DNA from: Ignavibacteriota bacterium
Lineage (GTDB): Bacteria > Bacteroidota > Ignavibacteria > Ignavibacteriales > Melioribacteraceae
NCBI GenBank assembly: GCA_002698995.1
Contig: PAAX01000002.1
Span: forward strand, 62,001 to 126,000
Length of the DNA: 64,000 nt
Reading direction: 5' to 3'
A model generated the notes under the pieces. It was given only the letters and a program-made list of their open reading frames with translations. It had not been told where the DNA came from and made no database searches. The position numbers and the translations under genes were made by a program. Numbering within the stretch: the stretch's first letter is position 1; every line of letters begins with the position of its first letter. Shown one piece after another: positions 22,041 through 44,877 of the stretch.

Positions 22041-22313
22041 CTTTTATTAAGTATTTTTACTTAATCTTATTTCATTAACATCATTTTTTGTACTTGTCTG
22101 AAATTGTCTGTTATCATTTCATAGAAGTATACGCCTGATGCTAAGTTTGATGCATCCCATGAATAGTTATAATATCCAGGTGTATATTGTCCGTTAACCA
22201 AAACTCCTACTTCTTTACCAACTGCGTTGTAGATTGTTATCTTAACATTAGAATTTTCTGGAACTGCAAACTTAATGTTTGTAGTTGGGTTGAATGGGTT
22301 TGGATAATTTTGT
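22040..22313 (-). repeat. T9SS sorting-domain duplication, copy 1
   Basis: 274 bp matching 28441-28714 with no gap and 4 mismatches counted by eye. It covers the 3' flank, stop codon and about 80 codons of the sorting domain. Similarity stops abruptly at the codons just before the Asn-Tyr-Pro-Asn-Pro motif. All four differences are silent, since the encoded segments are identical. Confidence 0.9.
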
Positions 22314-28441: not shown

Positions 28442-28714
28442 CTTTTATTAAGTATTTTTACTTAATCTTATTTCATTAACATCATTTTTTGTACTTGTCT
28501 GAAATTATCTGTTATCATTTCATAGAAGTATACGCCTGATGCTAAGTTTGATGCATCCCATGAATAGTTATAATATCCTGGTGTATATTGGCCGTTAACC
28601 AAAACTCCTACTTCTTTACCAACTGCGTTGTAGATTGTTATCTTAACATTAGAGTTTTCTGGAACTGCAAACTTAATGTTTGTAGTTGGGTTGAATGGGT
28701 TTGGATAATTTTGT
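28441..28714 (-). repeat. T9SS sorting-domain duplication, copy 2
   Basis: Partner of 22040-22313 (same length, 4 mismatches). Here it forms the 3' end of the multihaem cytochrome gene. Confidence 0.9.
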
Positions 28715-31176
28715 GATAAGTTGAAGCTTTCAGGAATACCATCTTCAACTGCTACACCAGTAAGCATAATAATTACTTGTGATGAGAAATCACTTTGATT
28801 TCCTGTAAAGTCGAATGCAGTAACTTTATAGAACCATCTTGATGCACCGCTGATATTTTCATCAACAAAAGTATTTTCTGTTGTAGTAGCATATAATTGA
28901 GCTTCAGTTGGATTAACTAATGGTAATCTGCTTCTGTAAACTGCAAAGTAGTTGAAATCTTCATCTACTGGTTCATCCCATGCTAATTCAACTTTATTAG
29001 AAACAACAATACCATTTACGTTTGTTGGAACAGTTGGAATTAAATTATCAACTGAGAATCCGCTCTTTGGAGCTGTTTCTGCAGTTAATCCTTGAACTGT
29101 AACACCTTTTACCATAAATGTTGTTTCAACTGTATCAGCTGGTGTTGCATCATAAAGAGTAGGAGCAACAACACTATATTCTAACGAGAAGTCTGCAGGA
29201 ACAACTGCTACTGTTGTCCAGAAAGCCCCTTCTGCTAAAACTGTAGATCCTATTTTAATGCTTGCAGCATCACCAGGAACTTGATCAAAAGAAGTATAAT
29301 CTGCATTAACTTTACCTTCTGCAGAACCGTCTTCTCTATAAACTACATAACTGTGAATTGGGTTATCGCTAACACCGTCACCGCCGAATCTTGTCCATCT
29401 TACAAATACTTGTCTTCCGTTATCATTTGGTACGTCAGCTATATCAATAATTTCGCCTTCAGTTAATACACCATAGTTAAGTGCTTCTAAAGTAACCTTC
29501 AACAAACCTACAGCATATTGGAAGTTGTGCATACCCATACTTTGATCTTCTTCTACAAATAAATAATTGTAAGCAGCTTTTAATTCCAATTTGCTATATG
29601 CATTAGTAACAGTTACTGCTGGGTCTCCATAAGGAGGCAATAATTTACCAACTTCATCTAATAATCCGTGTAATTCTTCTCTAGCTGATTCAATTGTACC
29701 ATCTTCATCATAATCTTTTCTTGCCATAAACGAATCAAATGATGTGATTGAAGCACCATGGCATGTTTGACAGAAATCAACATTATCTATGTCATCACTT
29801 TCATCATCAGGTGTACCGTTATCATAACTCATATTAAATGAGTGGTCACCAATCTTATCATAAGCAGGACTATTAGAATCTGCTGTTGGAGCCATGTGGC
29901 AGCTAACGCAGAAGTTTTCTAATGCATCTCTATGTGTTGAAGAAGGAATATATCTTCCGAATGTTATTGCGTTTGTACCAAGCACCATGTCAGTTTGGTT
30001 GTTATAGTGAGGTCCAAAGTGAGATGAATAATTTTGTACATATTCTTCTGCATTTCTTCTTGATTTGTGGCAGTTCATACAAAGTTTTCCAGTTCCGCCA
30101 ACAGTTACAATTGTACCGTCGTTCAATTCAACGTCTGCAATTGTTCTTAAATGATAAACTTGACCTTCCTGAGCACCTGTAATCATTGGATCATGGTTAT
30201 CATGAGAAGCATGAGGATCGTGGCAAACTGCACAAGAAATATTTCCAGGATTTGTAGTGCTGTATTCAATACCAGGAGTTTCATCATATTCAGCTATAAA
30301 ACCTGTACCGCTGTGGCAAGGTTGACAGTTAGGTCTGCCAGCAGCACTTAATTGGTCTGCATGAGCATGAGCTGAGCTAGCCCACATTTTTGGACGTCTG
30401 TGATAATGGTTATCATCATGACATTTTGCGCACATACCGGTTTCAATAGTAACATCCATTTTTGCTGCACTAAATCCGGATGAAGTATGACCGCTTGCAG
30501 GTCCGTGACAGTTTTCGCATTGAATATTAGATTTTGCTTTGAGATCAGCATTTAAAGCATCCCAGTTGCCTGCTTGTAAAGTTGCAGGTAAAACCCAGCC
30601 TTGTGTTCTAGCAACATCATCAAAACCACCGTTGTCAGCTTCTGTATCTTCATTATAACCAACTGTGTGACATGAAATACAGCTAGAGCCGTAATGACCG
30701 CTTAATGTACCGTCAATAGCTCTGGTAAAAATTGTTGAGTGTCCGGTTTCTTCCCATTCATTTTTTTGAGTAGAGTGGCAAGTACCGCATGTTGTAGCAT
30801 TGTTTCCTAAGAAAGTTGCACTTACAATTGTAATTTCATAAGCAACGCCGTCTGCAGTTAATTCAACAACATAATCACCAGTCATATCTGGTCTGAAAGT
30901 TACTAATTTAGTATTAGTAAAATCCAAAGCTGCTGTAGAACCATTTGGAGCTGATTTGATGGTCCAAGCATAAGCTGCTGCATCTTTTGCAGATGTTAAG
31001 TAAACTAAATCTCCCTTACCTACTGTTTTTAATCCAGTGTAAGTTGAATGATATAGTGTTGTGTCTATGTTAACACCATATTCAACCATGTAAGGACTTA
31101 CTGGATAAGTCTTAATTTGTGCATTTAAACTGAGGCACAAAGTAAGAAGGATAATAAGTGATACTACTTGTTTCAT
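28468..31176 (-). CDS. Extracellular nonahaem c-type cytochrome with T9SS sorting domain
   Basis: 902 residues. A signal peptide (MKQVVSLIILLTLCLSLNAQ) and a PKD/Ig-like N-terminal segment (~25-120) precede nine CxxCH haem sites: Cys130, 166, 220, 249, 284, 315, 366, 423 and 469 start the motifs. Extra His residues between them can act as distal ligands. Two fibronectin-III-like domains (~560-810) and a T9SS C-terminal domain follow. The arrangement resembles the cytochrome c554/octahaem group, but enzyme residues cannot be assigned. Expected location is the outer cell surface, suited to electron transfer to extracellular acceptors. It is the second gene of an operon with a lone receiver protein (27-nt gap) read from a sigma-54-type promoter and divergent from a CxxCH sensor kinase. 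Confidence 0.9.
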   Translation of the reverse strand: MKQVVSLIILLTLCLSLNAQIKTYPVSPYMVEYGVNIDTTLYHSTYTGLKTVGKGDLVYLTSAKDAAAYAWTIKSAPNGSTAALDFTNTKLVTFRPDMTGDYVVELTADGVAYEITIVSATFLGNNATTCGTCHSTQKNEWEETGHSTIFTRAIDGTLSGHYGSSCISCHTVGYNEDTEADNGGFDDVARTQGWVLPATLQAGNWDALNADLKAKSNIQCENCHGPASGHTSSGFSAAKMDVTIETGMCAKCHDDNHYHRRPKMWASSAHAHADQLSAAGRPNCQPCHSGTGFIAEYDETPGIEYSTTNPGNISCAVCHDPHASHDNHDPMITGAQEGQVYHLRTIADVELNDGTIVTVGGTGKLCMNCHKSRRNAEEYVQNYSSHFGPHYNNQTDMVLGTNAITFGRYIPSSTHRDALENFCVSCHMAPTADSNSPAYDKIGDHSFNMSYDNGTPDDESDDIDNVDFCQTCHGASITSFDSFMARKDYDEDGTIESAREELHGLLDEVGKLLPPYGDPAVTVTNAYSKLELKAAYNYLFVEEDQSMGMHNFQYAVGLLKVTLEALNYGVLTEGEIIDIADVPNDNGRQVFVRWTRFGGDGVSDNPIHSYVVYREDGSAEGKVNADYTSFDQVPGDAASIKIGSTVLAEGAFWTTVAVVPADFSLEYSVVAPTLYDATPADTVETTFMVKGVTVQGLTAETAPKSGFSVDNLIPTVPTNVNGIVVSNKVELAWDEPVDEDFNYFAVYRSRLPLVNPTEAQLYATTTENTFVDENISGASRWFYKVTAFDFTGNQSDFSSQVIIMLTGVAVEDGIPESFNLSQNYPNPFNPTTNIKFAVPENSNVKITIYNAVGKEVGVLVNGQYTPGYYNYSWDASNLASGVYFYEMITDNFRQVQKMMLMK

Positions 31177-36960: not shown

Positions 36961-38322
36961 TTATTCATCATATTTATCAATTCCCAATTTCTGCATTTTC
37001 TTAAAAAGATTTGTTCTATCAATTCCTAATGCATCAGCAGTTTCATTTATTTTCCAATCATTTTTATTTAGTGCTTCTAAAATGTATTCCTTTTCAAAAT
37101 TTATTTTTGCTAATCTTAATGGAAAAACTTCATCAGTTTCCTTCGGTTCAAACTGAGATTTTACATTTAGTGCGTTAATAGTTTCATTTAGCGAAATTTC
37201 ATTCCCCTTACAGAATATCACCAGCTTCTCAATTATGTTTCTTAATTCTCTTACATTTCCCTGCCAATGATGATTTCTTAATTTTGCTTCTGCCTGCTGA
37301 TTTATTTTATCAACCATTTTATTGTACTGTTTAGAAAAATAATTTAAGTAATGATATGCAAGAGGAATTATATCCTCTCTTCTTTCTCTTAACGGTGGAA
37401 TAATTAATTTAACTACATTCAAGCGATGGTAAAGATCATTACGAAACATTTTTTCTTTTACTAATTCCGGTAAGTTTTTATTGGTTGCGGCAATTATCCG
37501 CACATCAACTTTTCTTGGAATATTTTCACCGATAACTTCAACTTCACTTTCTTCAAGTACTCTAAGTAGTTTTGCTTGCAGATTCAAACTCATATCACCA
37601 ATTTCATCCAAAAATAAAGTGCCTCCGTCTGCAGCAATAAATTTTCCTTCTCTATCTTTTTCTGCTCCGGTAAACGATCCTTTTCTATGTCCGAATAATT
37701 CACTTTCTAAAAGCTCGCTTGGTATTGCAGCACAATTAACTTTTAGGTATGGTTTTGATTTTCTATTACTGTTATTATGAATTGCCCATGCAATTAATTC
37801 TTTACCGGTACCGCTTTCCCCTTCAATTAATACCTTTGCGTTTGTTGGTGCCAGACTAGATATATTCTGAATCAATTTTTTGAAAGGTTCACTATTACCA
37901 ATCATTCTAAAATTTTCTTGCAATTCTTTAAACAGAAATTCTTTTTCTGTTTGAAGAGCTTTTTTGCTGATTGCATTATTTATTGTTATTAGAAGTCTTT
38001 CTGTTTCAATCGGTTTTTCAATAAAATCAAAAGCTCCTTTTTTTATAAGATCAACAGCAATATGAATATTGCTTTGACCTGAGATCATAATTACAGGAAG
38101 AAAAGGATTCTTTTTAGTGATGATATTAAAAATCTCAATTCCATTTAAACCCGGCATTCTTACATCAAGCAAAACACAGTCATAATCCAACTGATTTAAT
38201 GCATCTAATATTTCTCTCTGATTTGAAATTGAAGTTACGCTGAAGCCTTTTATTTCGAGCAGTTTTTTTATAGAAATTAAGTACTTATTATCATCATCAA
38301 TAGCTAAAATTTTTGCAACCAT
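36961..38322 (-). CDS. NtrC-family sigma-54-dependent response regulator
   Basis: 453 residues. Receiver with Asp53 (CVLLDVRMPG) and Lys in FIEKPIE; AAA+ with Walker A GESGTGKE, sigma-54 loop GSFTGA (Ala replaced by Ser at position 2), Walker B LFLDEIGD; Fis-type HTH near the end (INETADALGIDRTNLFKKM). It follows its kinase by 9 nt. A GTTGCAA-N3-TTGCAAC palindrome stands upstream of the kinase and again upstream of the cohesin/dockerin operon, the likely binding site of this protein. Confidence 0.94.
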   Translation of the reverse strand: MVAKILAIDDDNKYLISIKKLLEIKGFSVTSISNQREILDALNQLDYDCVLLDVRMPGLNGIEIFNIITKKNPFLPVIMISGQSNIHIAVDLIKKGAFDFIEKPIETERLLITINNAISKKALQTEKEFLFKELQENFRMIGNSEPFKKLIQNISSLAPTNAKVLIEGESGTGKELIAWAIHNNSNRKSKPYLKVNCAAIPSELLESELFGHRKGSFTGAEKDREGKFIAADGGTLFLDEIGDMSLNLQAKLLRVLEESEVEVIGENIPRKVDVRIIAATNKNLPELVKEKMFRNDLYHRLNVVKLIIPPLRERREDIIPLAYHYLNYFSKQYNKMVDKINQQAEAKLRNHHWQGNVRELRNIIEKLVIFCKGNEISLNETINALNVKSQFEPKETDEVFPLRLAKINFEKEYILEALNKNDWKINETADALGIDRTNLFKKMQKLGIDKYDE

Positions 38323-38331
38323 AAATCACCA

Positions 38332-40809
38332 TTAAAAAGTAAACTTTGGAAAAATAACTTTAAAGATTGTTCCCTTACCAGGCTCAGATTCTACTTCTAC
38401 CCTGCCTTTATTGTCCATTGCTATTTTGTTTGCAATTGCCAGTCCCAAACCTGTCCCTTCAATTTTGGTTGTAAAGTAAGGTTCAAAAATTCTGGCAACT
38501 TTTTCTTCTTCTATACCCGAACCATTATCGCTAATGCAGATACAAACTGATTCTTTAGAAAGGTTGTTATAATTAATTACTACTTCAGTTTTAATTCTTA
38601 TTGTTCCATTTCCATTTAATGCATCAATTGCATTTTCAATAAATATCTGTAATAGTTGTTCAATTTGATTAGGATCGGCTAAAATGTATTCTGCATTTTT
38701 GCCTATATCAATTTCAATTGAAATGCCATTACCAAAATAAGAGGAAAAATTGTTTTTTGTCGATTCAATAATTTCCTTCAATTCTACTGCTTGAAAATTT
38801 GGCTTCTCAAGATTTGAAAACTTCAGAAAATCCTTAGTTAATCTGGTTATTCTTTTTATTTCATCCTGAATCATTTCAATATCAGAAAAATAATCCCTTT
38901 TTTTTACAATAAATTCTTGTTCAATTCTAGCTTTAAGCGAACTAAGATTTAACTGAATTATGGAGAGCGGCGTTTTAATATCATGAGCAATTTTTTGAGC
39001 TGTTGATGCCCAGATTAAATTTCTCTCATGCTGAATTACTTTTGTTCTGTCTTCAAACCTAATTAAGTAAGCATAAACATAACCTAACATTGATTTAAGA
39101 GGAGTAACAGATAACTCTCCTTCCGAAATTCCAAGTTCATTATAAATAGGTTCCGATATTGGTTTAGTAATCCTGTTGTGAATTGCATCGTATGCCAATC
39201 TGTATAAAACTGTATTTTTAGGAATTTTGGTTAGAATGGAATCACCGGTTTTGTTATTATCAGAACTCAATCTGCTAATTATTTGCGGATTATATTCTTT
39301 AAGTATACCTTCATGATCAATCAAAATAACATTGTTATTCTCTTGATTGATTAAATACTTCAACGAATCGGAATATTTTTTTACATAATGAACAATTGAA
39401 TTAAAGAATAGCAAGAGGAAATAAAAAACCGGAAAACTAAGCATTGAAATGGGAATGATATAGCTATGAATAAAACTGCTTTCCAAATGTGAATAAGTTT
39501 GGATGTTGTTTTTTCTGGTTAAAAAATGATTTGTATTATTTGCATAACCAATGGATAAATAATAATCATCATCTATTAATTCGGCTGGAATTTCATCTAA
39601 TGCTAATAATTCTAATTCAGTATTCATAATAAATAAATTATCATCCATTCCACCTATAAAATAGAGTTTGTCGTCATTATTCAAAAAATAACTTTTTGTT
39701 GATATTATTAAACTCCCATCAAATTCTTTTTCTTTTAGGATTTGTAAATTCTTGTCATAAATTCTAAATATTCTTTTATCATTGTCGCTTATTACTGCTA
39801 GAAGCCTTTCTTCATTATTTATTTTAAAAGAGAAAGTGCTAACAGAAATAGATTCATTGGAAAATGTTACTTTATTAATAACTTCTAAATTATTATTTAA
39901 AACTAAAATGCTGGCACCTTCATCTTTATTATTTTGATGAGCAGTTATAAAAATTCTTGGTTCATTTTCTATATCGATAATACTCAATCCAGTTGAAGAA
40001 GGGTAAACTCCTAAAACTTCCGATTCATAAATTAATTCTAGTTTGGAGTTTAATATCATAAACCTCGTTTCCCAATCGTTATGTCTCAGATTTTTATCAA
40101 AATTACCCGGAGCTGTTGTTGTATAAAGAATTTCGGGGTTAGAATCATTATTGAAGTCGTTTATATAATAATTAGTTACTGCTTGTGCAGTCAGAAATTG
40201 GTTTGTTATTTTATTTTCTTCAAAGTCATAGATAATAAATCCACGCATTGGAACAGAATGAGCTGTTTGAATATATGTTAAAAGCTCTAATCTACCGTCA
40301 TTATCAAAATCGTATAAATTCCCGTTCGCTTTATTAATATCCCATTGTTTATTAAATAAAGGTTCTCTAACAATTAATGGAAGTTCATCAACATATTCAT
40401 ACTCTTTTTTTATATCAAGAATTGATACAAAAAGTGTATCCAGATTTATAGTATAAATAATGAGATCACGAATTTTATCTCCATTATAGTCATCAAAAAA
40501 AAGCTGCGCCGTTTTAGATATTTTTCTCTTTAAATGATAAGCTCCGATATCATTTTTAGGTTCGACAGAATTTAATGTTATATAAGTTAAGTCGGTTAAT
40601 GTATGAATATAAGGAGTAATTCTTTCGCTGATACCGTCTTCATCAGCATCTATATAAATATTAAAACGGGTATCTGATAGAACTTGTTTTTCATCAACAA
40701 CTATTCTATACGGGAATGAATAAAGAAGCAATAAAACTAGAGTTGCTAAAGAAAGACATAGAGAAATAACTATGAATAATATTTTTACACTTCTATAAGA
40801 TTTTAACAT
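38332..40809 (-). CDS. Sensor histidine kinase with periplasmic FG-GAP/VCBS-like Ca-binding repeats and PAS domain
   Basis: 825 residues. Helix 1 (~8-30) is followed by a ~430-residue periplasmic domain with Asp-rich loops DADEDGISER, DDYNGDKIRDL, DFDNDGRLELL and DFNNDSNPEIL, typical of FG-GAP/VCBS beta-propeller blades. Helix 2 (~450-470) leads to a PAS domain, HisKA with His609 in KIAHDIKTPLS and HATPase with IENAIDALNGNG, DNGSGIEEE and GTGLGLAIAN (NtrB-like). Integrin-like propellers bind calcium or carbohydrate/protein surfaces, so a polymer or contact signal is conceivable. The NtrC-type partner is 9 nt downstream. Confidence 0.9.
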   Translation of the reverse strand: MLKSYRSVKILFIVISLCLSLATLVLLLLYSFPYRIVVDEKQVLSDTRFNIYIDADEDGISERITPYIHTLTDLTYITLNSVEPKNDIGAYHLKRKISKTAQLFFDDYNGDKIRDLIIYTINLDTLFVSILDIKKEYEYVDELPLIVREPLFNKQWDINKANGNLYDFDNDGRLELLTYIQTAHSVPMRGFIIYDFEENKITNQFLTAQAVTNYYINDFNNDSNPEILYTTTAPGNFDKNLRHNDWETRFMILNSKLELIYESEVLGVYPSSTGLSIIDIENEPRIFITAHQNNKDEGASILVLNNNLEVINKVTFSNESISVSTFSFKINNEERLLAVISDNDKRIFRIYDKNLQILKEKEFDGSLIISTKSYFLNNDDKLYFIGGMDDNLFIMNTELELLALDEIPAELIDDDYYLSIGYANNTNHFLTRKNNIQTYSHLESSFIHSYIIPISMLSFPVFYFLLLFFNSIVHYVKKYSDSLKYLINQENNNVILIDHEGILKEYNPQIISRLSSDNNKTGDSILTKIPKNTVLYRLAYDAIHNRITKPISEPIYNELGISEGELSVTPLKSMLGYVYAYLIRFEDRTKVIQHERNLIWASTAQKIAHDIKTPLSIIQLNLSSLKARIEQEFIVKKRDYFSDIEMIQDEIKRITRLTKDFLKFSNLEKPNFQAVELKEIIESTKNNFSSYFGNGISIEIDIGKNAEYILADPNQIEQLLQIFIENAIDALNGNGTIRIKTEVVINYNNLSKESVCICISDNGSGIEEEKVARIFEPYFTTKIEGTGLGLAIANKIAMDNKGRVEVESEPGKGTIFKVIFPKFTF

Positions 40810-41120: not shown

Positions 41121-41156
41121 TTAGGTGGTAATTAGGATTATATAATTACCACCTAA
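41121..41156 (-). terminator. Hairpin downstream of the cohesin operon
   Basis: TTAGGTGGTAATT and AATTACCACCTAA, a perfect 13-bp stem with 10-nt loop, 14 nt after the stop of the small cohesin gene. The T-tract is weak. Confidence 0.6.
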
Positions 41157-41170
41157 GTATATGAAGTTAG

Positions 41171-41905
41171 TTATTTGATAAGAAGCATTTTATGAGATTG
41201 ATAAAAGTTTCCAGCTTGGAGAGAATATATATAAACTCCGCTTGTTAAAGCTGAAGCATCAAAATTAGTTTGATATTTCCCAGCCTCTTTTTGTTCATTT
41301 ACCAAGACGGATATTTCATTTCCCATTATATCATATATTTTTAATATGACGTATTCTTTACTCGGGAGTGAATACTCAATTTTTGTTGTTGGATTAAACG
41401 GATTTGGATAATTCTGGGATAGATCAAAGTCTAAAGGGAAATTCTCCTTTTCAGTAACTCCAACCAACACTGAGCCTCCATTTACATTTGCAGACGGACT
41501 TCCACCATTAAACATAAAGTTCTGAATTGTAAGATTAGAATTCGATTGCTGGTTTTTACCCTTTAGTTTTATAATTATTAGATTACCATCTCCCGACAAT
41601 TCATTTGCACCTGCCGCAGCGATATTGACTTGACCGGCAGTATTCAAGTTGCTCAAGACTGACCAATCAGAAGGGGTTAGTGTATTACTCTTTAAGACTT
41701 CCAATGCTTCAAATTCATTTGAGTCATATATTAATTCAAACTGATATGAAATAACAACCATACTACTGCTGATTGAACTAACGACTATTGGTACTTCTAT
41801 AATCCCATCGCTTGTTGTAAATTGCAAATTTGAAGGTATATTAACATTAATCGACTGACCAAGCAAAACTGTAACACAAGCAAATAATATTATTATTTTT
41901 CTCAT
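41171..41905 (-). CDS. Surface cohesin-domain protein with T9SS sorting domain
   Basis: 244 residues: signal peptide (MRKIIILFACVTVLLGQS), one cohesin-like beta-sandwich (~18-150; ISYQFELIYDSNEFEALEV, NIAAAGANELSGDG, IIIKLKGK are typical), then a T9SS domain with NYPNPFNPTT. This is a minimal anchoring scaffoldin: one cohesin fixed on the cell surface. It starts 8 nt after a larger gene that has its own cohesin and a dockerin, with GAGG 5 nt before the ATG. The cohesin is clearly paralogous to the one next door. Binding to that dockerin is an inference. Confidence 0.82.
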   Translation of the reverse strand: MRKIIILFACVTVLLGQSINVNIPSNLQFTTSDGIIEVPIVVSSISSSMVVISYQFELIYDSNEFEALEVLKSNTLTPSDWSVLSNLNTAGQVNIAAAGANELSGDGNLIIIKLKGKNQQSNSNLTIQNFMFNGGSPSANVNGGSVLVGVTEKENFPLDFDLSQNYPNPFNPTTKIEYSLPSKEYVILKIYDIMGNEISVLVNEQKEAGKYQTNFDASALTSGVYIYSLQAGNFYQSHKMLLIK

Positions 41906-41913
41906 TTCTACCT

Positions 41914-44877
41914 CTATTTAATTAAATTTAGTTTTATAGATGATGAGAACAAATTTGATCTTAAATTAAGTATATAGATTCCTGTTGATACTTGTTCTCC
42001 AAAATTATTAGTACCATCCCAAACAAGTTGATGAGTGCCAGACATCAACTCTTCGCTAAGCAAAGTTTTCATTTCCCTTCCAAGAAGATCAAAAATTTTA
42101 ACGACTGTAAATGAATCCTCAGGAATTGAAAACTTAATATTTGTTTTAGGATTAAATGGATTTGGATAAGCATCATAAAGGGTATATTCATTAACAGGTG
42201 AGTTGTTGCTAAGATTCAATAAACTAATTTCACTATTGTTCAGAATTAGCTTGTCAATTCTGTTTGAAACTCCTTCTTTCCCTATAATTTTAATATTATC
42301 AAGGTTTACTCCGCTTGCCGTAGCCATCGCAATCTTAAAGGTTCCATTTATATTGTTTTTTTCGATAATTGCATCAGCTGGTAAGCCAGCAATATTTATA
42401 TCGCCACTTCCATTTATTTCAAGAAATAATGAGTGAATCACCTGTGGAATTTTACTTTCTAGAGATAATATGTTTTCGACATTTTTATACGATAGATCTG
42501 ATTGATTTATAGTTGGCTGGTTATATGAATCATTACTCTTTCCTCCAAAGCAGTTAGGACTTGGGACACTTAGACCGACCACTTTACGTAAGATTAGTGC
42601 AGCATCATATGCATTACAATTATTATCTTCATTAATATCACCATTGTTTTGCTGATCAGCATTCAAGGTTATTAATCCAACTGTATGTCTTAAAATAAGT
42701 GCTGCATCATATGCATTTACCGAACCATCAACAGAAACATCTCCACATACTTTACAAACTAAATTTACAGATCCATTTGTTACAATAGCCGTAGGAACTC
42801 CACTATTGAATTGAAAATTATTTAGTGTGAGACTTGAAGTTCCCTCAGTTCCCTTTCCTTTGAATTTAATATTCAACAGTATGCCAGAACCACTTATTTC
42901 ACTTGCGCCAGCAGCAGCAATTGTGATGGAACCAGCAGAATTATTGATATTGGGAATTATTGACCAGCCTGATGGTAAAATTGTACCAGATTGTTCAACA
43001 CTAACTGCTTCAATTAAATTTGGATTAAAGTTAAGAGTAAATTGAAATGATATTACTCCTTTACCTGTTAAATCTGCTGTATTTATAGGAACCAAAAACT
43101 CATTATTGCATGATACAATAATTCCTGATGGAATATCAACACTCACTCCAGGTCCATCTGGTTTTCCTTCAATTGTTACTGGAATTTGCACAGAAGGAAC
43201 TCCATTACTACCACTAATTGTGATCGTTGCAGATTTAGAGGATGTTGAATTATTTTGTGAAGCTGTTATCTGGATATTTCCATTATTTGTTCCTTGAACC
43301 GGACTGACCGTTAGCCAATCAGCACTTTCACTTACACTCCAAGAAACATTTGAACTAATTCCCTTCGTTTCAGTTCCACCTTGCCATGGGAAATTAACTG
43401 GACTCGATGGGACATTAAGATAATAGTCTACTGATTTTCCTGGTTGATTGACGGTTACAGTCTTAGACGACACGCCATTTGCAGATATAGTAATTGTTGC
43501 AGAACGTGGAGAAGTGTTTGTATTTTCTGTCACTGTAACTGTAACGTCGTCATTATAACTACCACTTCCTGGATTTACCGATAACCAAGTAGCATTTTCA
43601 TTAACAGTCCATGAGACATTTGAAGCAATAGCAAATTCATCTGATCCAGGATTAGAATTCGGGAAATCTATAGTAGGAGGATTTACATTTAAAAACGGCA
43701 GCTCACTACCCATAGGTGTATAAAAAATATCATAATCATTTGCAGCATATTTATTTGCAAACACAACACCTTTTTGCGTATTACTTGGCCACATTGATAT
43801 AAAATCATCACTGCTCGGTTCATAATTATCTGTATAAAGTTGTGCAGCTGGACTCCATGTGCTGATTTGAGCAACACTAGATGATTGTGAATAAATTCTT
43901 GAATTTTTAACATATGCTGCTGCAATATAACCTGAAGGAGAATCTGTCATATCAAATACAGGAAATTTTGCACTTGTCGTCAAAGTTTTTTCCGAAGATA
44001 CACTCCCGCTTAACTTGTAAAAATATTTAATTGTTGTTCCTTCCGAATATCCAACAATCCAATTGCCTCCATAAGAACCAATTGTTGGAGATGCACCAGA
44101 TGAACTAATACTTTTTTCATATTCTTTTGTAAATGAGCTAGTCCCGGTTCTTGCCAAAACAATGATTTTATTTGATCCAGATATTTTTGCGTTATAGACA
44201 AACATATCGGTTCCACTTCCATTTGTTGCATCAGTTCTAAATAATCCATCAGGATAAGTGAAGCTGTTCGTTGGAGAATAGATTTTTGAAAAAGTGCCTC
44301 CAGAAGTACCTTTTGCAATAATAAATTTACTATTACTTTTATCTGCATAAGCAACATAAATTGTTGAACCATTAGCAATTATGGAAGGTCTCATTAGTTC
44401 AGTGCTAGAGTATTCGACAGTAGTATACTCCAATGAATAGTCTGACAGAGACATTCTTGCAACTTTTATTGCATTTTTACCATTATCAACAATCTGCTGA
44501 TAACTGACATATAAATAATTGTTTTCAACAAAAGCCTGTGGTAATACTAAACTTTGAGTACTTGTTGAAAATGTTTTTTTTCTTGTCCAATTATTTCCAT
44601 TATCTGTCGATTCATAAATTGCAATTTTTATTGGACCTGTGCTATTTGCCTCAGTATATTCAGATACAACATATAATTTTGAATTCGTCCCGGCAATAAA
44701 AGGTGATTTTTCATTTGCACTTGTGTATGCAACTTGAAAAGTGCCCGAAGATAATTCAAGAGTACCTTTTACCTTATTTGTCTGAAAATTCTCAATTTGT
44801 GTTTCTTCCAGATCCTGCGCAAAAATAGAACTAAATGAAAAAATCATTAAATAAATGTAAAAAAAGTATTTGGACAT
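41914..44877 (-). CDS. Large secreted propeller/BACON/cohesin/dockerin protein with T9SS sorting domain
   Basis: 987 residues. Signal peptide to residue ~20; a BNR/sialidase-like beta-propeller (~30-390); two BACON-type Ig domains (~396-485 and 485-572, each with NVSW and a W-L-x-V core); a cohesin (~576-706, ISFQFTLNFNPNLIEAVSV); a dockerin (~708-771) with two Ca loops, DVSVDGSVNAYD and DINEDNNCNAYD, both continuing DAALILR; a T9SS domain with NPFNPKT. Having a cohesin and a dockerin allows chain or network assembly. BACON domains often bind mucins or glycans. It leads an operon with a second cohesin protein. AGGAGG lies 4-5 nt before the start. Confidence 0.85.
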   Translation of the reverse strand: MSKYFFYIYLMIFSFSSIFAQDLEETQIENFQTNKVKGTLELSSGTFQVAYTSANEKSPFIAGTNSKLYVVSEYTEANSTGPIKIAIYESTDNGNNWTRKKTFSTSTQSLVLPQAFVENNYLYVSYQQIVDNGKNAIKVARMSLSDYSLEYTTVEYSSTELMRPSIIANGSTIYVAYADKSNSKFIIAKGTSGGTFSKIYSPTNSFTYPDGLFRTDATNGSGTDMFVYNAKISGSNKIIVLARTGTSSFTKEYEKSISSSGASPTIGSYGGNWIVGYSEGTTIKYFYKLSGSVSSEKTLTTSAKFPVFDMTDSPSGYIAAAYVKNSRIYSQSSSVAQISTWSPAAQLYTDNYEPSSDDFISMWPSNTQKGVVFANKYAANDYDIFYTPMGSELPFLNVNPPTIDFPNSNPGSDEFAIASNVSWTVNENATWLSVNPGSGSYNDDVTVTVTENTNTSPRSATITISANGVSSKTVTVNQPGKSVDYYLNVPSSPVNFPWQGGTETKGISSNVSWSVSESADWLTVSPVQGTNNGNIQITASQNNSTSSKSATITISGSNGVPSVQIPVTIEGKPDGPGVSVDIPSGIIVSCNNEFLVPINTADLTGKGVISFQFTLNFNPNLIEAVSVEQSGTILPSGWSIIPNINNSAGSITIAAAGASEISGSGILLNIKFKGKGTEGTSSLTLNNFQFNSGVPTAIVTNGSVNLVCKVCGDVSVDGSVNAYDAALILRHTVGLITLNADQQNNGDINEDNNCNAYDAALILRKVVGLSVPSPNCFGGKSNDSYNQPTINQSDLSYKNVENILSLESKIPQVIHSLFLEINGSGDINIAGLPADAIIEKNNINGTFKIAMATASGVNLDNIKIIGKEGVSNRIDKLILNNSEISLLNLSNNSPVNEYTLYDAYPNPFNPKTNIKFSIPEDSFTVVKIFDLLGREMKTLLSEELMSGTHQLVWDGTNNFGEQVSTGIYILNLRSNLFSSSIKLNLIK

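Follow-up and report, generated by a model that had tools for sequence, protein, structure and literature searches.

A cohesin–dockerin gene pair with type IX sorting tails in an Ignavibacteriota bacterium: a candidate self-contained, non-cellulosomal coupling system

Background

Cohesin–dockerin pairs build the cellulosomes of Clostridia, in which dockerins typically outnumber cohesins, and occur scattered elsewhere. Here, we describe such a pair from an Ignavibacteriota bacterium (family Melioribacteraceae), located in a stretch of 64,000 nucleotides hereafter called the window (assembly GCA_002698995.1, contig PAAX01000002.1, positions 62,001 to 126,000 of the forward strand). Its two genes lie on the minus strand, a large one upstream (41914-44877, 987 aa) and a small one downstream (41171-41905, 244 aa), with 8 bp between them, and both encode cohesin proteins that end in a sorting tail of the type IX secretion system (T9SS). 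We propose, with a probability of roughly 0.55, that they constitute a self-contained, non-cellulosomal cohesin–dockerin pair which is exported by the T9SS, forms a two-gene operon, and cross-links the cell's own adhesin-like proteins.

A comparable arrangement is presumably found in Archaeoglobus fulgidus, where we take two adjacent genes to encode a cohesin plus a dockerin and a further cohesin, respectively; to our knowledge, this archaeal pair carries neither a T9SS tail nor a propeller-BACON cargo. The Archaeoglobus Coh-Doc pair is reported to have served as a working binding pair (PMC9705933). In Candidatus Stygibacter (Cloacimonadota), a scaffoldin of 3,755 aa with tandem cohesins and carbohydrate-binding modules (CBMs) is described together with several dockerin enzymes (GH18, GH57, peptidases); its conserved C-terminal domain, for which a T9SS review is cited, was put forward as a means of attachment to the cell surface (PMC8542988). 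Furthermore, archaea of the ANME group are described as combining a dockerin and cohesins in one protein, in a setting other than cellulose degradation; there, a protein may have up to five cohesins, and the dockerin proteins include ABC-transporter binding proteins (PMC9012536). The Melioribacter genome paper reports its cellulase genes to be without dockerins (PMC3534657). Our literature search found nothing joining Ignavibacteri-, type IX secretion and cohesin and, beyond the papers cited, none with the window arrangement, judged by titles and abstract starts, which is no proof of absence. The literature already contains a T9SS-tailed scaffoldin, from Cloacimonadota, as well as a non-cellulosomal pair from an archaeon, and the window pair varies on these.

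With the clostridial cellulosome, the window pair shares the type I cohesin fold and the dockerin repeats. However, neither a multi-cohesin scaffoldin nor a dockerin enzyme was detected in the genome, the pair gave no CBM match, and T9SS tails stand in place of the SLH or sortase signals. In contrast to Ca. Stygibacter, we found a single dockerin in the genome, no more than one cohesin in either protein, and no enzyme that could act as a client.

Results

The features of the locus, all on the minus strand, are the following:

41914..44877, minus: large gene, 987 aa, with signal peptide, beta-propeller, two BACON domains, cohesin, dockerin, beta-rich module and T9SS tail (open reading frame, Pfam, NCBIfam)
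44818..44877, minus: signal-peptide-like N-terminus of the large protein, residues 1-20 (sequence, by eye)
43699..44745, minus: beta-propeller, residues ~45-393 (AlphaFold model and structure matches; without Pfam match)
43441..43689, minus: BACON domain 1, residues 397-479 (Pfam)
43168..43425, minus: BACON domain 2, residues ~485-570, approximate limits (Pfam in two stretches; self-alignment 24/52 identical)
42772..43152, minus: large-protein cohesin, residues 576-702 (Pfam, family profile, AlphaFold model, structure search)
42574..42750, minus: dockerin, residues 710-768, sole dockerin detected genome-wide, with two calcium-loop repeats and flanking cysteines (Pfam, relatives' profile)
42181..42573, minus: beta-rich module 3' of the dockerin, residues 769-899, where relatives carry a cohesin or a module resembling one (model, profile comparison)
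41917..42180, minus: large-protein T9SS type A sorting tail, residues 900-987 (TIGR04183)
41906..41913, minus: 8-bp intergenic spacer, AGAGGT (ribosome-site-like) directly before the small-gene ATG (sequence)
41171..41905, minus: small gene, 244 aa, with signal peptide, cohesin and T9SS tail (open reading frame, Pfam, NCBIfam)
41474..41857, minus: small-protein cohesin, residues 17-144 (Pfam, profiles)
41174..41422, minus: small-protein T9SS type A sorting tail, residues 162-244 (Pfam, TIGR04183)
41121..41156, minus: terminator-like hairpin directly 3' of the small gene, 14 pairs, 4 G-C (consensus scan only)

The initial annotation had read a small protein of one cohesin plus sorting domain and, upstream of it, a propeller-BACON-BACON-cohesin-dockerin-sorting-domain protein, and profile searches bore out both architectures. 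In the small protein, Pfam identified Cohesin (2.6e-9) and Por_Secre_tail (5.4e-11). In the large one, BACON (1.5e-21, in two stretches), Cohesin (9e-13) and Dockerin_1 (7.1e-8) all exceeded the cut-off, while the propeller region gave no Pfam match and is known from the structural model, and no enzyme was matched in Pfam anywhere along the protein. The large-protein tail scored 21.9 bits with Por_Secre_tail, below the Pfam cut-off of 27, but 25.6 bits with TIGR04183 (cut-off 23), so that this type A sorting domain is above cut-off in both proteins; signal-peptide-like N-termini were recognized by eye on both as well. By sequence alone, the large protein matched PDB dockerins best (E 2.5e-4), and profiles built from the family's cohesins and dockerins retrieve cellulosomal ones. 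The two cohesins, rightly annotated as paralogous, are identical at 58 of 132 aligned positions (44 %) and form sister rows with support 99/90 in a 49-row tree.

Residues 575-987 of the large protein (413 residues) were modelled with AlphaFold from 34 sequences (pLDDT 85.9, pTM 0.60). The cohesin of this model matches type I cohesins with Z ~17 over ~130 residues and resembles the non-cellulosomal Archaeoglobus fulgidus cohesin 2xdh (Z 15.8). As in the Archaeoglobus-type pair, the cohesin fold is accompanied by a dockerin with two loops, DVSVDGSVNAYD and DINEDNNCNAYD, which by sequence fit the calcium-ligand pattern of dockerins. Both repeats carry identical AY residues, and symmetric residues across dockerin repeats hint at two binding modes. 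Two cysteines bracketing the dockerin, invariant in 4/4 sequences (the window protein and three close homologues), may form a clasp. The beta-rich module that follows (residues 769-899) is partly of low confidence in the model and is barely probed by the structure search made with it. In nine dockerin proteins of relatives, all of the other layout, profile comparison identifies the corresponding segment as cohesin-like, a cohesin that has diverged (hhalign probability 97.6, E 4e-12), and the module of the window subgroup of four matches cohesin weakly (probability 16, E 0.0016) and the nine likewise at 16. The N-terminal part, residues 1-574, was modelled from 4 sequences (pLDDT 78.3); residues ~45-393 align with the 50 PDB entries listed, most of them beta-propellers, at Z 23.8-32.6. 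These matches scatter over CylK, integrin alpha, Photorhabdus lectins, lyases and glycosidases, so that they define the fold of the propeller clearly but point to no single function.

The complement of possible partners was counted in the whole genome (4.23 Mb, 99.99 % complete). Pfam yielded two cohesins and one dockerin, all within the gene pair and with one cohesin per protein. Profiles from 41 dockerins and 60 cohesins of relatives, searched at E<=1, added no dockerin and, on the cohesin side, a single cohesin-like hit below threshold (E 0.12, C7:17656-17823). The count of other dockerin proteins, which the initial annotation had suggested as a check, thus found none, and its proposal that the large-protein cohesin receives further dockerin proteins is not supported here, as the only dockerin detected sits in the large protein itself. 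Of the components of a cellulosome, type I cohesin and dockerin domains are present (Pfam above cut-off, PDB matches); the several dockerin-bearing enzymes and the multi-cohesin scaffoldin were not found, the single dockerin detected in the genome being on a protein without Pfam enzyme match.

Export by the T9SS, also proposed initially, is well founded: besides the tails on both proteins, the genome encodes the T9SS sortase PorU (NF033707, 989.7 bits, cut-off 420) and holds 140 type A sorting-tail matches. Cargo of this type is either anchored or released. Since the large protein carries its own tail, docking to the small protein is unneeded for its attachment.

Recurrence was examined in a gene-order sample of 40 neighbourhoods (39 relatives' loci and the window) with 41 dockerin genes. 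A gene with a cohesin lies directly downstream on the same strand in 29/41 (gaps of 7-100 bp) and directly upstream in 2/41; 21/41 have a cohesin within the same protein, and 3/41 neither there nor in a neighbouring gene. A T9SS tail follows the dockerin in all 41 proteins. Three layouts recur. In the first, cohesin proteins come after a giant dockerin protein (~2,100-3,000 aa); in the second, cohesin proteins, often with three cohesins, come after a dockerin-cohesin protein; the third is that of window-like cohesin-dockerin proteins. For instance, one relative (G175, L117) has the C-terminal layout and order of the window, a protein of 948 aa (cohesin-dockerin-tail) being paired with one of 258 aa (cohesin-tail), and carries TIG and FG-GAP where the window has propeller and BACON. 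Among 11 relatives' dockerin proteins scanned, the N-terminal cargo comprised cadherin-like, FG-GAP, beta-helix, subtilase S8, InlB-like repeats, Vps10, DUF4397, or none, with an enzyme match (the subtilase) in one of them.

In a survey of 196 genomes, the window's own included, cohesin matches occurred in 106 and dockerin matches in 89: both in 74, cohesin only in 32, dockerin only in 15, and neither in 75 (co-occurrence Fisher p 4.7e-14, relatedness uncorrected). The 32 genomes of the window's family with both hold 126 cohesin and 49 dockerin matches, counted as domains, not proteins; 24 of these genomes have exactly one dockerin match, and in 25 cohesins outnumber dockerins. Pfam undercounts, as illustrated by a genome (G012) without Pfam dockerin match in which the family profile detects one (L112).

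Other dockerin proteins were also observed among relatives. Ten proteins were scanned, and C-terminal dockerins without T9SS tail match were found on four polysaccharide deacetylases and one GH18 (L035, L036, L039, L044, L047), all from another family of the same order. Two of the genomes concerned, G101 and G110, additionally encode T9SS proteins with several cohesins (L108, L109), making a real client system, with dockerin enzymes on T9SS-tailed cohesin proteins, possible there. In addition, large proteins of two genomes (L098 in G043, L116 in G048) bear a different dockerin type (GDANGDL), then a short module and a T9SS tail; the one GDANGDL-type protein scanned has a subtilase S8, and 3/4 of this type are without cohesin in themselves or in a neighbouring gene.

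With regard to the surroundings, the strand that carries the pair encodes, downstream of it and past the terminator-like hairpin, a histidine kinase of 825 aa and a sigma-54 response regulator (window 36961-40809, minus). Further along the minus strand, 28468-31176 encodes a 902-aa multihaem cytochrome with 9 CXXCH motifs, Cytochrome_C7 and MtrC-like matches and a C-terminal T9SS tail, which suggests an extracellular, T9SS-exported cytochrome. Its tail (28468-28714) and that at 22067-22313 (minus), at the 3' ends of two genes ~6 kb apart, share 98 % DNA identity over 247 bp; other listed genome matches to it were partial, 66-72 % where >100 bp (40 of 99 candidates scored). These near-identical tails look like the product of a recent gene conversion.

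Discussion

In our reading, the large protein would present its propeller and its two BACON domains, all of which have the look of binding modules, and may play an adhesive role. The small-protein cohesin would grip its dockerin in trans, likely in a calcium-dependent manner; as the two cohesins are sisters, a second copy of the large protein would probably do the same with its own cohesin, and one dockerin may fit both. In this way, the cell's own exported proteins would be joined into short chains or a cross-linked layer, presumably retained at the surface and capped or anchored by the small cohesin protein. The 8-bp spacing, the ribosome-site-like sequence and the terminator-like hairpin fit a two-gene operon, although the consensus scan found 5 terminator-like sites in 4.7 kb versus 2.3 expected from shuffles. 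As the genome searches detected no other dockerin, the two proteins most likely engage each other instead of serving as a scaffold onto which enzymes dock. Compatible with such pairing, dockerin and downstream-cohesin distances in 25 neighbouring pairs are correlated (r 0.69, and 0.58 with the tail held constant; 0/2000 shuffles reach either).

Several observations weigh against cross-linking by this pair. The correlation just mentioned may come from shared descent alone, which the shuffles leave in, and cohesin and tail distances of the same 25 pairs are correlated too (0.70). The sheet that we take to face the dockerin is not better conserved between the window cohesins (16/32) than the other sheet (18/40, Fisher p 0.81). 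The neighbourhoods were picked for having cohesin, dockerin or large-protein matches. Among the matches listed, at least 26/47 same-family dockerins lie <=10 kb from a cohesin, but 21/47 are without a listed cohesin within that distance. Furthermore, of the 74 genomes with both families, cohesin matches are more numerous in 47 and equal in 12, but fewer than dockerin matches in 15. Finally, the tails on both proteins render an anchoring role of the dockerin redundant.

These points have to be weighed together with three other explanations. That the conserved folds have simply lost their pairing, being kept as beta-sandwich and EF-hand-like spacers next to the sorting tail, would explain the cohesin-only (32/196) and dockerin-only (15/196) genomes and the lack of special conservation among face residues; however, the calcium loops appear intact by sequence, the genes adjoin, and both families co-occur strongly in the survey, so we consider this unlikely. 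The dockerin might instead fold back onto the adjacent cohesin of its own chain and form a rigid joint, stiffened by calcium, ahead of the sorting tail. Only 7 residues separate the two domains, which form one C-terminal cassette in three close homologues, including the invariant bracketing cysteines. Such a lock in cis would nevertheless leave the separate small cohesin protein purposeless, and the giant relatives have no detected cohesin N-terminal to their dockerin while full cohesins reside on the next protein, so we consider it unlikely.

Of the minimal surface scaffold initially proposed, in which the small protein anchors the large one and the large-protein cohesin recruits further dockerin proteins, some elements persist: cohesins, dockerin and T9SS tails are all real, and a possible partner next door recurs in relatives. 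The deacetylase and GH18 dockerin proteins and the multi-cohesin proteins of G101 and G110 also speak for scaffolds in some relatives. Yet the large protein has its own tail, and neither Pfam nor the relatives' profile found a second dockerin, hence no further clients, in the window genome. If the one-dockerin count stands, a genome-encoded scaffold is refuted and could survive only with dockerin partners from other cells, which makes it a very improbable explanation of this locus.

Conclusions

Extending the proposed cross-linking pair to the whole order is tentative, and we hold it to be less likely than not: cohesin–dockerin pairing would have turned from enzyme scaffold to self-assembly, in compact operons where cohesin or cohesin-like modules flank a single dockerin and cohesin-only proteins follow, each T9SS-tailed, forming a calcium-dependent surface lattice or adhesive layer with freely swapped N-terminal cargo. 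The window pair itself is small enough for a direct test with purified domains and could serve as an orthogonal coupling tool. If our reading is true, bacterial cohesin–dockerin pairs without cellulosomes would tie together the cell's own T9SS-exported proteins, with the partner genes adjoining.

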